A stretch of 64,000 nt of DNA. Origin: Phycisphaerales bacterium (lineage in GTDB: Bacteria; Planctomycetota; Phycisphaerae; Phycisphaerales; UBA1924). The position numbers were made by a program, and so were the translations under genes. The stretch covers positions 310,001 through 374,000 of the forward strand of contig JAJDDK010000006.1 in NCBI GenBank assembly GCA_029260345.1, given 5' to 3'. Shown here piece by piece: positions 1 through 61,212 of the stretch. Below the pieces are notes generated by a model that saw only the letters and a program-made list of their open reading frames with translations, was not told where the DNA came from and made no database searches. Numbering within the stretch: position 1 is the first letter of the stretch; each line of letters opens with the position of its first letter.

Positions 1-1274
1 TCCCCGCAGGCACGTATGACCTATATACGTACGCGTGTCTTCCGGGCGACTCTTTTCAGCCCGGCTTCGCCATCGGAGTCTGGGTCAACAATGTGTATCA
101 GGGCACGTCATTCATTAGCGGCGCCGTCACTACATCCACCTTTCAAGAAGGACGCACGCACGACATCCGCAACATCACCGTCGGTGCTGGTCAGCCGGTG
201 CGTGTTCGAGTCTTTGACACCTCGGGCGAATTCGGTGATCCGACCGGTCTCAACGGTTTCCAGCTGGTGAAGCTCGGAAGCTTGAACGCCGCGATCACCG
301 ATCCGACCAACATCGAATGCGTTTGCGATCCCGTGCAGATCACCGGCACGGCGTCCGGCGCTGGATTCAGCAGCTACAAACTCGAATGGTCGCAGACCGG
401 CAACGACCCTTGGACGACCATCGTCTCATCGAATAGCCCCGTGACCAACGGCACGCTCGGCACATGGAACGCCGGCGCGCTGGCCGAAGGCTATTACACC
501 ATTCGCCTCACCGTGCAGACCGGCGGCGGACTCTCTGAAACGGCGACGACCACGGTCTATCTGAATCAAGACTTTGATCCCATTGATCTGCGCTCGCCGG
601 TCGCGGGCCAGATTTACGGTGGCAAAGTCTGCTTCGACGGCACCGTGTGGGACCAGTGCTTCTCGCGCTATCAGGTGAAGTACACCGCGCCGGGCGGCGG
701 ACTCTTTGATGTTGATCCGGGGCAGCCCAACTATTTCACACCCGTCATCAACGATCCCCTCGCTTCGTGGAGCACGAACGGCCTGCCTGACGGGAATTAC
801 ACCGTCAACGTCACCGGTTTCAACACGTGCGGCGACACCGAACAGGCCAGCGCTTCCATTCAGATCGACAATACGCTTCCGGTCGGCGTCATCACACTGC
901 CGGCGCCGTGCAGCTCTGATTGCGGCCTCATCAACATCGTCGGCACCGCATCCGACGCCAACCTCGACTTCTGGACGCTGCAGTACGCCGGCGCCGGGCA
1001 GTCCAACTGGGTCACCATCGCAACGGGCACGACCAATGTCATCAGCGGCGTGCTTGCTGAATGGGACACCAGCAATCTGCAAGGCTGCTGCTATGCCCTG
1101 CGGCTGCTCGTCTACGACAAGGCCATCGTGAATTGCGGCTCGTCGCGCAACGTCACCGAATTCGTGCGCACCTTCCACGTCGGCAACCCGCTCGACATCA
1201 ACGGCGACGGCCAAATCAACGGCGCCGATCTCGCCGGACTGCTCGCCAACTGGGGCCCGGTCTGCGAGAATTAA
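1..1274 (+). CDS. Secreted Ig-like repeat protein with dockerin-like C-terminus (5' partial)
   Basis: The reading frame is open from the first bases (codon phase starting at base 3), so the true start and any signal peptide lie outside the window. The visible ~423 residues hold about three repeats of a beta-sandwich, Ig-like or carbohydrate-binding-like module. Each repeat has phrases such as VQITGTASG, VCFDGTVWD and NIVGTASDA followed by a W-T-T/TI-A-T-G strand and an LAEWxTxxL strand. The protein ends in DINGDGQINGADLAGLLANWGP, split here as a calcium-binding-like DxNxDGxINGxDLA loop followed by LLANWGP, the dockerin-like tag seen on several other proteins of this window. It is probably exported and displayed on or outside the cell surface. 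A hairpin terminator lies 40 bp downstream. The exact function is unknown. Confidence 0.8.
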   Translation, partial: PAGTYDLYTYACLPGDSFQPGFAIGVWVNNVYQGTSFISGAVTTSTFQEGRTHDIRNITVGAGQPVRVRVFDTSGEFGDPTGLNGFQLVKLGSLNAAITDPTNIECVCDPVQITGTASGAGFSSYKLEWSQTGNDPWTTIVSSNSPVTNGTLGTWNAGALAEGYYTIRLTVQTGGGLSETATTTVYLNQDFDPIDLRSPVAGQIYGGKVCFDGTVWDQCFSRYQVKYTAPGGGLFDVDPGQPNYFTPVINDPLASWSTNGLPDGNYTVNVTGFNTCGDTEQASASIQIDNTLPVGVITLPAPCSSDCGLINIVGTASDANLDFWTLQYAGAGQSNWVTIATGTTNVISGVLAEWDTSNLQGCCYALRLLVYDKAIVNCGSSRNVTEFVRTFHVGNPLDINGDGQINGADLAGLLANWGPVCEN

Positions 1275-58804: not shown

Positions 58805-58876
58805 GCGGGCGTAGCTCAATGGTAGAGCGTCAGCCTTCCAAGCTGAATGTTGAGGGTTCGAGTCCCTTCGCCCGCT
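58805..58876 (+). tRNA. tRNA-Gly (anticodon TCC), island integration site
   Basis: A 72-nt cloverleaf forms: acceptor GCGGGCG/CGCCCGC with discriminator T, D stem GCTC/GAGC, anticodon stem TCAGC/GCTGA with loop CTTCCAA (anticodon TCC) and T loop TTCGAGT. Its 3' 43 bases plus two flanking T residues (58834-58878) are repeated exactly at 61129-61173. Confidence 0.95.
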
Positions 58877-58878
58877 TT
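58834..58878 (+). repeat. attL-like direct repeat (tRNA-Gly 3' end)
   Basis: First copy of a 45-bp perfect direct repeat; it starts within the anticodon loop region and runs through the discriminator base plus TT. This copy is part of the intact tRNA gene. Confidence 0.85.
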
Positions 58879-59110
58879 CGATAAGTCCTTCCGAACGCTT
58901 CGGATGCGTACCGCGTCCGTGGATAGGTGCGCGGCTCGAAACCCAATGACGACTATCGCGTCTTAGCGAGCCGCGGTCGGGTTCGATGCGCAAGATATGA
59001 AAAAAGCGATGCAGGAAGCTGCCGAAGTATCGATTCCACACAGTCAGCGTTCAGGCCGTCATATCCCTAGGCGCCCATGACGACTACCGCGGTCAGCACG
59101 GTCGAAGCTC

Positions 59111-59143
59111 CGGCCGGGGGCTTCCAACGCCGGGCCGTTTTTT
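59111..59143 (+). terminator. Terminator-like hairpin in the island
   Basis: CGGCC pairs with GGCCG around a GC-rich interior, followed by a run of six T. It could end a transcript that reads through tRNA-Gly into the island. Confidence 0.5.
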
Positions 59144-59848
59144 GTGCGCTATACCGCCGAACGCATTCACATAGCGCTGCCGTGCGAAGTCGCCAGATTC
59201 TCGTCAAAAAGGTTTGAATTTGCCGCTTCATGCACGTGGATGCTGCTTCTTGGCATCAAGTACGCCCATGTGCGTGGGATCACTCAAAATGCGCTTGACA
59301 GCAGGCTTGCGAACGTTCAACATATTGGCGGCGAGTGCATTGAAAACCGCCGAATTAAGAACTTAATCGCCCCATATCAAACAACTTAGACCCCCACCCG
59401 CGATTCGCGCGAGCGATTTCATTTGGCCTTGCATCTTGCGCCGTTTCCGGCCCCAGCGCTTTGGGCGGTGATACTCGCGCTTGTCGCGGCCATGAAATTT
59501 AGAAGGGCCACAGAATGTCCAGGAGGCACGCGTGACCATGAACCATGAATCGTCATTAGAAGAAGAAAGGAGGCGCACGTGCTCGCAAAACTCATAGCGA
59601 GAATGCGGCTTTCGCCGGCAACGCCTTAAAGGCCCGCTAGGGCGCCCAAGGCACCTGGCCCCCCGGCACACTGCGACAATGCTCAAGCCAAAGGGCAGGG
59701 GCTCCATGCCAGACGACCGCGCTCATGAGGATCTGCTGTGGCATCGCAAGTCTCTTGAGCAGAGCCGTCGGAGAAACTGGTACAAATATCGGATTGATTG
59801 ATCACCAAGACGATACGCGGACCAGAATCCAGGTCTACGGGTCTCGCC

Positions 59849-59881
59849 ACCGTCCGCTAGGCAGCGAACGGTGGCTTTATT
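59849..59881 (+). terminator. Terminator-like hairpin upstream of the HEPN-like gene
   Basis: CCACCGT pairs with ACGGTGG around an inner CGCT/AGCG pairing, followed by CTTTATTTT. It would insulate the HEPN-like gene from upstream transcription. Confidence 0.5.
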
Positions 59882-59995
59882 TTGGGATCAGACCACCGAT
59901 GGAGATCGGCAGAGACCTCGGGGTAGACGGATTCCCGGGGCCGTTTTTGCACCGGTACATTCAGAATCCCCTGCGAAGTGAGCTAGGATGCCAAA

Positions 59996-61006
59996 GTGAA
60001 GAGACTGGTTCGATTTGTGGACCAATTGCAGCTTGCGGGAAAATACCTTCACGAGGAAGGCACGCAGTTTGCCAGACTATCACTTGTCTTGGCCGACAAC
60101 GTGGTGGAATTGCTGGTCCACGAGAGGTGCCAGCAACACTTGATAAAGGACGAATTTTGGGGCGTGATGTTTGAAAGGCGCCTTTCGAAAAGCGATCGTG
60201 AAGCTGCTCGGGGACAATCATTCAAAGACAAGATCAATTTGCTTGTTCGACTTGGAGATATTCCTGAGGACGTATGCGAATTTGCAAAAAGGGCGCACGA
60301 GATTCGCAATCAGTGCTACCACGAAGCGGTCAAATTGGAGTCCGTGTGGTGGCGCGTTGCGTGGTCGTATCATGAACTCGCGTGCAAAATGTTCAAGCAC
60401 CTGCGGGCTCCTGGGATTATTTGGGGCCCGGCATTCTCACCATCCAATGAAACGCAAACGCTGTTGAGGGCGGCTGGCATTGAGTCGGCAGGAGATTTTG
60501 GTGGCGATACGGATGCGGTTGATCGATTGACGAACCTGATTCGAGGCGTAAAGCCGCAACCAATCACAACGCTTCAAGAAGTGCTTACGAATGCAGCTCA
60601 AAGCAGAATCAGAAACCTTTTGGAGCAACTTGAGTTCATCGCGCATGACGGATTAGACACAGAATCGTTGGAAGACGCACTATTCGAATCGTGTTTTGGG
60701 GCAACGGTTGATGTGTCGAAAATCTCCAGCGAATTCGACATGGATTCTTCGGACGGAATCAAAGAATTCATTAAAGCCCTCGATCGCGAGCGTTTCAATT
60801 ATTCACCGCCAGTCACCCTGAAGCGGGTTTACGGGTGGCAGCGTCGTGCGAAAGCGCTGAAGGGCGAGAATTCCGAGTCACATTGCATGAAGAAGTTCAT
60901 GGACCTGCTCCGAGAATCAGAAGTCATCTACGCGTACGTCGATGAGGCCTCGACGACGCTGGATCAAAAGATCCAGGCGGAGATCGACAGCTATCGCGGA
61001 AAGTGA
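59996..61006 (+). CDS. HEPN-like domain protein, the only gene of the tRNA-Gly island
   Basis: Start is GTG 59996, with AGGA about 8 nt upstream. The 336-residue protein is predominantly alpha-helical. The N-terminal ~135 residues match the HEPN plan: a long helix pair (RLSLVLADNVVELLVHERCQ and FKDKINLLVRLGDIPEDVCE), then HEIRNQCYHEAV with Arg104 and His109 forming the R-x4-H motif. In HEPN RNases this motif is catalytic. The C-terminal ~190 residues (TTLQEVLTNAAQSRIRNLLE, LDRERFNYSPPVTLKRVYGW) have no family I recognise. Codon use is AT-richer than neighbours. A nuclease role in phage defence or element maintenance is a plausible inference; a plain helical structural protein is the alternative. 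Confidence 0.6.
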   Translation: MKRLVRFVDQLQLAGKYLHEEGTQFARLSLVLADNVVELLVHERCQQHLIKDEFWGVMFERRLSKSDREAARGQSFKDKINLLVRLGDIPEDVCEFAKRAHEIRNQCYHEAVKLESVWWRVAWSYHELACKMFKHLRAPGIIWGPAFSPSNETQTLLRAAGIESAGDFGGDTDAVDRLTNLIRGVKPQPITTLQEVLTNAAQSRIRNLLEQLEFIAHDGLDTESLEDALFESCFGATVDVSKISSEFDMDSSDGIKEFIKALDRERFNYSPPVTLKRVYGWQRRAKALKGENSESHCMKKFMDLLRESEVIYAYVDEASTTLDQKIQAEIDSYRGK

Positions 61007-61128
61007 CTTCAATTGCCGTGTTCAAGTTGCCCGAAGCAGCGCGAACCAGCCATCGACAGTCAACTCTCTGCTGCTTTCGGTATGAATCGAGATTGCCAAG
61101 GTGTGCAAATTCAGGACTTGCCAGAGCA

Positions 61129-61173
61129 CCTTCCAAGCTGAATGTTGAGGGTTCGAGTCCCTTCGCCCGCTTT
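61129..61173 (+). repeat. attR-like direct repeat (partial tRNA-Gly)
   Basis: Second perfect copy of the tRNA-Gly 3' half. It lacks the acceptor 5' strand, D arm and half of the anticodon stem, so it cannot be a working tRNA. Confidence 0.85.
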
Positions 61174-61178
61174 GTTTC

Positions 61179-61212
61179 GGCCGTCGCTTTCGCGGCGGTC
61201 GTTTTCATTTTT
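61179..61212 (+). terminator. Displaced native terminator of tRNA-Gly
   Basis: GGCCGTCGC pairs with GCGGCGGTC (9 bp, two wobbles) around TTTC and is followed by GTTTTCATTTTT. It starts 5 bp beyond the second repeat copy, which is where the original tRNA-Gly terminator would end up after integration. Confidence 0.7.

Follow-up and report, generated by a model that had tools for sequence, protein, structure and literature searches.

The window analysed here, a stretch of 64,000 nucleotides from a Phycisphaerales bacterium, contains an intact tRNA-Gly(TCC) gene and, 2.3 kb downstream, a second copy of its 3′ end. This arrangement raises the question of how the DNA between the two copies arrived and what it has kept. 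We consider it likely that the 2.3-kb segment is a decayed, CIME-like integrative element of the type associated with family-2 tyrosine integrases (see below), which has lost its integrase and retained a HEPN gene. Both the type of element and the HEPN fold are already known. What is new is the member found in the window, the recurrence of its HEPN family in minimal tRNA-Gly islands, and the occurrence of that family inside an RNA-repair operon. The features of the locus are summarized in Table 1.

Table 1 Features of the tRNA-Gly(TCC) island. Positions are those of the window, except for the protein domains, which are given in residues.
Feature	Position	Strand	Basis or remark
tRNA-Gly(TCC), intact (regenerated), attL side	58805-58876	+	ARAGORN; Rfam RF00005 76.4 bits
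att repeat copy 1 (tRNA positions 30-74)	58834-58878	+	45/45 identical to copy 2
N-terminal remnant of a tyrosine integrase associated with tRNA genes (family 2)	59019-59120	+	tblastn; hmmsearch; shuffling control
HEPN-domain gene, intact, GTG start, 336 aa	59996-61006	+	motif, AlphaFold, fold match
N-terminal HEPN domain of the protein	residues ~1-139		
C-terminal helical domain of the protein	residues ~190-336		
att repeat copy 2, original tRNA-Gly 3′ fragment, displaced (attR)	61129-61173	+	
Rho-independent terminator, probably native to tRNA-Gly	61178-61201	+	same layout in the tRNA-Gly(CCC) pair L059/L088

The boundaries and contents of the island

The island is enclosed by a direct repeat with a spacing of 2295 bp, which starts in the anticodon stem-loop and ends 2 nt beyond the tRNA 3′ end. 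All 45 bp match, confirming the exact duplication of the tRNA-Gly(TCC) 3′ end reported in the first-pass annotation, and the chance of such a match within 5.5 kb is negligible. The native-looking terminator that was placed past the second copy is also found. It forms a hairpin of 10 pairs, eight of them G-C, with a T-rich tail, and starts 5 bases past the second copy; no terminator was found directly after the intact tRNA-Gly(TCC). A hairpin terminator no more than ~75 nt from the tRNA is present at several of 19 related tRNA-Gly(TCC) loci. In addition, the base composition differs between the repeats, as previously stated, with the GC content falling from ~0.60 to 0.54 (0.539 between the repeats and 0.508 in the HEPN gene, against 0.61 and 0.59 for the two flanks).

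Apart from the tRNA sequence, the island DNA is single-copy in its own 3.4-Mb genome. The same element was also sought in 61 related genomes, and no second copy was found at the DNA level; the alignable part is essentially tRNA sequence only. A relative possessing the flanks of the window and lacking the island was not found, and the flanking genes are unshared at the loci tested. At tRNA-Gly(CCC), an occupied and an unoccupied site can be compared. Genome G004 carries a 6.0-kb family-2 island at this gene and G018 is without that insertion. The 236 bp beyond the distal tRNA copy of G004 share 92% identity with the sequence that immediately follows tRNA-Gly(CCC) in G018, terminator included. 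The G018 site is unoccupied for the G004-type insertion only, because a different recombinase gene is located slightly further downstream.

The HEPN gene is the sole intact long ORF of the island, in agreement with the earlier description of a single cargo-type gene. A Pfam search of six further island ORFs gave no match, an Rfam search of the island returned tRNA and no other RNA family, and no packaging, regulatory or oriT-type genes are recognisable in it. A candidate serine-recombinase remnant on the minus strand (~59231-59416, 'AVKRILSDPTHMGVL') was dropped, as it has neither a Pfam match nor a relative in the 61 genomes. Two 18-bp near-copies (89%) are located at 58943-58960 and 59074-59091, the second overlapping the integrase remnant, and perhaps represent a partial duplication. 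Immediately past the integrase remnant, at 59119-59136, lies another hairpin that resembles a terminator and has a T6 tail.

The integrase remnant and related islands at tRNA genes

The integrase remnant is composed of 34-35 aa, starts ~140 bp past tRNA-Gly(TCC) and has the same orientation as the tRNA. It matches an intact family-2 integrase of the same genome (G000:C7:38275-39531) at 47% over the N-terminal 34 aa (tblastn, E 8e-7). The family-2 profile, built from 12 sequences only, recognises it with an i-E of 8e-5 and 10.2 bits (hmmsearch). This is the sole match of the profile in the 64-kb window; among 1000 shuffled islands, the highest score is 5.8 bits. An upstream stop is followed by no in-frame start codon, and the remainder of the gene is absent; correspondingly, a whole-genome search with PF00589 gave no match in the island. 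The earlier statement that the island has no intact integrase is therefore correct but incomplete, since an N-terminal piece of the gene is still recognisable. Because the remnant is short, with an identity of ~47%, and nothing else of the integrase is left, its family-2 membership is based on the short match together with its position.

The position is informative in view of the layout of family-2 loci. At 11 of the first 12 such loci, a tRNA gene (Asp, Ala, Gly, Val, Pro or Met) is located close upstream in the same orientation. The start codons lie mostly ~30-120 bp downstream of the tRNA, with one overlapping it, and in G064 (L076) the family-2 integrase sits in tRNA-Gly(TCC) itself. A second tRNA copy was found in five family-2 islands, namely L088 and L089 (tRNA-Gly(CCC)), L093 and L094 (tRNA-Pro) and L096 (tRNA-Met). 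In all five the copy is 42-44 bp long, 100% identical and reaches the tRNA 3′ end, and the fragments cover tRNA positions 31-74 (three islands), 34-75 and 34-77. At some family-2 islands, no second copy was found within the stretch of DNA examined. The repeat in the window fits this pattern of fragments that start at ~31-34 and run to the 3′ end. Moreover, the remnant conforms to the family-2 layout, being situated just downstream of the tRNA and in its orientation.

Family-1 tyrosine integrases, which are related to one another, are located directly after tRNA-Gly on the opposite strand, and the corresponding tRNA-Gly fragments begin at positions 17-28. A family-1 remnant in the window island was considered and rejected, as the family-1 profile has no match there. 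Several genes of this family (L033, L037 and others) run across the att site, with the C-terminus encoded antisense to the tRNA. In the relatives, second tRNA-Gly 3′ copies occur 4.7 to 17 kb downstream in five genomes, together with such a family-1 integrase, the islands using tRNA-Gly(CCC) in G038 and tRNA-Gly(TCC) in G012, G017, G018 and G049. On contig C18 of G049 (L037, L038), a tRNA-Gly(TCC) gene is followed by two islands in tandem; each of the first two 3′ copies is accompanied by a family-1 integrase of its own, and a third copy lies ~44 kb downstream. In G001 (L032:3249-11317), a 49-bp perfect tRNA-Gly 3′ copy is found 8 kb downstream of the gene. The genes between are GC-normal and no PF00589 match lies between the two copies; this locus was left out of the evidence. 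Intact tyrosine integrases are encoded elsewhere in the genome of the window itself, among them a family-1 member at tRNA-Gly(CCC) on C8 and a family-2 member at tRNA-Asp on C7. The geometry of the fragment, the terminator displacement, the hot spot shared by relatives and the tRNA-Gly(CCC) pair thus support the proposal that the island is inserted in tRNA-Gly.

The island can be compared with several known types of element. It shares with Islander class A an intact tRNA, a same-orientation displaced 3′ fragment downstream, a crossover near the anticodon loop and a length above 2 kb (PMC4383910). The displaced fragment is on the correct side of the tRNA, and the length of 2.3 kb falls within the range of 2-200 kb, near the lower limit of that database. 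In place of an integrase ORF, however, there is only the 34-35-aa remnant, and the Islander filter would reject the island because it has no intact integrase. As in a CIME, attL and attR are kept and integration and transfer genes are lost (PMC5704250), whereas in the window no conjugation genes are seen, there is no accretion at the site, and descent from an ICE or IME is unsupported. The tRNA-Gly(CCC) islands L088 (G004, 6.0 kb) and L089 (G017, 9.2 kb) share with it the integrase family, its position and orientation, and a 3′ fragment that begins at position 30-31. Unlike the window island, which has the HEPN gene alone, both bear an intact integrase and further genes, one of which looks in sequence like a primase-polymerase. 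The integrase combined with regulatory or packaging-interference genes that would mark a phage satellite (PICI/P4-like) is not found in the island, which holds one intact gene, without a phage homolog.

The HEPN protein and its homologs

The 336-aa protein matches DUF4145 with an E of 5e-4, which is below the cut-off, and searches of PADLOC, NCBIfam and PDB sequences returned nothing credible. Across 11 aligned homologs, residues R27, D34, E38, R104 and H109 are invariant and N105 is nearly so. R104, N105 and H109 form an RNxxxH motif, in line with the Rx4-6H motif of the HEPN superfamily. In the AlphaFold model (pLDDT 86), residues 1-139 are matched by HepT structures with Z 10.6-11.3 at 2.2-2.4 Å over 111-119 residues; the next matches have Z ≤7.5. 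These values fall below 13, the caution level for helical bundles, and the HEPN assignment is therefore carried by the motif and the fold together. The C-terminal domain gives generic helical matches only, which do not imply a novel fold. Judged by its motif and predicted fold, the protein is a new, divergent HEPN protein.

The top fold match is HepT of the MntA-HepT (MNT-HEPN) system (Z 11.3, 2.4 Å, 119 residues), which also has the R...H motif. The window protein is only ~14% identical to HepT and possesses the extra helical C-terminal domain, and no ORF for an adjacent nucleotidyltransferase is found in the island. HepS (PDB 9oij), which we take to be the same protein as STM14_3211, is a weak fold match (Z 7.2) that may reflect just a common helical arrangement, and there is no significant sequence match. 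For the most part, HEPN proteins are metal-independent RNases of toxin, abortive-infection and restriction systems (PMC9879122, citing Anantharaman et al. 2013). By its motif and model, the window protein is probably such an RNase as well, retained either in the defence of the host or as a toxin that secures its own preservation, and a defence-type role of this cargo is plausible.

Homologs were found in 4 of 400 genomes of the order and in a few others of the phylum, and none was found in phage and viral collections. In addition, 18 plasmid records contain homologs, from Rhizobium, Agrobacterium, Paraburkholderia, Cupriavidus, Sinorhizobium, Streptomyces, Caulobacter and others. On a Paraburkholderia fungorum plasmid, an integrase lies at a distance of ~1 kb from the homolog, and Qat defence genes follow downstream of it. 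A partner gene common to the plasmid homologs was looked for and rejected, the upstream genes being non-homologous except between Agrobacterium and Rhizobium. In G495 a tyrosine integrase adjoins the HEPN gene, and in G192 the homolog is found beside queC and gyrB.

A second small island is present in G016, which belongs to the same taxonomic family. Its 2.26-kb tRNA-Gly(GCC) island (L044:5353-7687) contains a HEPN homolog and a truncated family-2 integrase, which scores 96 bits to family 2 and lacks its N-terminal half. On one side the island is bounded by tRNA-Gly(GCC), on the other by a 37-bp sequence that repeats tRNA positions 5-41 perfectly. Followed along the integrase, the order of att, integrase, HEPN and att is that of the window, and the island is in mirror orientation because the duplicated tRNA fragment is the 5′ half. 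Such 5′ fragments are a minority in Islander, 159 versus 3760 (PMC4383910).

In G121 (L046:873-7504), a homolog is part of an operon composed of Rsr/TROVE, a YrlA RNA (RF02553 at 2957-3080 of L046), a 235-aa unknown protein, RtcB, the HEPN homolog and RtcA. The Rsr-YrlBA-RtcBA operon of Salmonella is switched on by cleaved tRNAs (PMC7790460); a candidate source of the signal for that operon is a HEPN gene carried by the Gifsy-1 prophage (PMC9879122). The Gifsy-1 protein (STM14_3211) shares with the family described here the carriage on mobile elements and the link to RtcBA RNA repair (PMC9879122). By analogy, the placement of a homolog within the RtcBA operon of G121 suggests that the family may cleave tRNA or a similar RNA, and the window protein may be a defence nuclease that cuts RNA.

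Origin of the island and its implications

In the reading that we favour, a tyrosine integrase would have recombined the element into the 3′ half of tRNA-Gly(TCC), at or close to the anticodon loop. The 3′ half carried by the element would have restored the tRNA, shifting the original 3′ end and its terminator 2.3 kb downstream. The family-2 integrase would then have decayed to the N-terminal piece and any other genes of the element would have been lost, with the HEPN gene staying after the integrase decayed. The remnant is in the expected place and orientation, and the element therefore most likely possessed an integrase of its own before it decayed. We thus infer that the integrase was lost in place rather than before insertion. 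One observation is less comfortable: the repeat still matches at 45 of 45 positions though the integrase is almost gone, a state that fits decay in place less well than the recent insertion of a reduced element.

This observation, together with the other intact tyrosine integrases of the genome (family 1 on C8, family 2 on C7) and with the G016 island, which likewise measures 2.3 kb and pairs a HEPN gene with a defective integrase, gives some weight to a non-autonomous element (a satellite or MITE-like cassette) that never had a working integrase here and was inserted in trans by a helper integrase. The remnant, however, occupies the very spot of an element's own integrase, the island has no second copy in its own genome or, by DNA, in the 61 relatives, and it contains no recognisable packaging, regulatory or oriT-type gene. 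Insertion in trans is accordingly unlikely, and the satellite mobilised in trans that the first-pass annotation envisaged gains no support over the simpler reading. A bolder proposal, which we regard as quite improbable, would make the islands of G000 and G016 a recurrent ~2.3-kb cassette of a tRNA-Gly integrase followed by a HEPN nuclease in the same order and strand. Its nuclease would cut tRNA at the anticodon region of the integration site; kept after the decay of the integrase, this nuclease would be a selfish or defensive module and would have been recruited once into the Rsr-YrlA-RtcBA operon.

It is highly improbable that the second 45-bp sequence is a tRNA fragment that arose by chance or duplication and has nothing to do with insertion, or that the assembly wrongly joins two places through a repeat. 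The assembly does consist of 8 contigs, and the 49-bp fragment of G001 lies 8 kb downstream with no recognisable integrase between; against this stand the integrase remnant, the composition change, the displaced terminator and the matching geometry in several independent genomes. As for the cargo, the gene might be ordinary host or RNA-repair machinery that was carried in passively, neither defence nor toxin. Homologs between rtcB and rtcA in the Rsr-YrlA operon and beside queC and gyrB point in this direction, and some members are therefore chromosomal and perhaps housekeeping genes. The rare and patchy occurrence in the order (4 of 400 genomes), the plasmid homologs (Rhizobium, Agrobacterium, Paraburkholderia, Caulobacter, Streptomyces) and the homolog beside an integrase in G495 argue against it, making a passive passenger rather doubtful.

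A decayed family-2 element that retains its HEPN gene would exemplify how tRNA-borne elements shrink in Phycisphaerales, losing the integrase and keeping one nuclease gene, apparently twice and at two tRNA-Gly isoacceptor genes. Moreover, an unnamed HEPN family is found on islands and plasmids and, once, in an RtcB/RtcA operon, making the opposition between a mobile, putatively tRNA-cutting nuclease and RNA repair testable with one gene.
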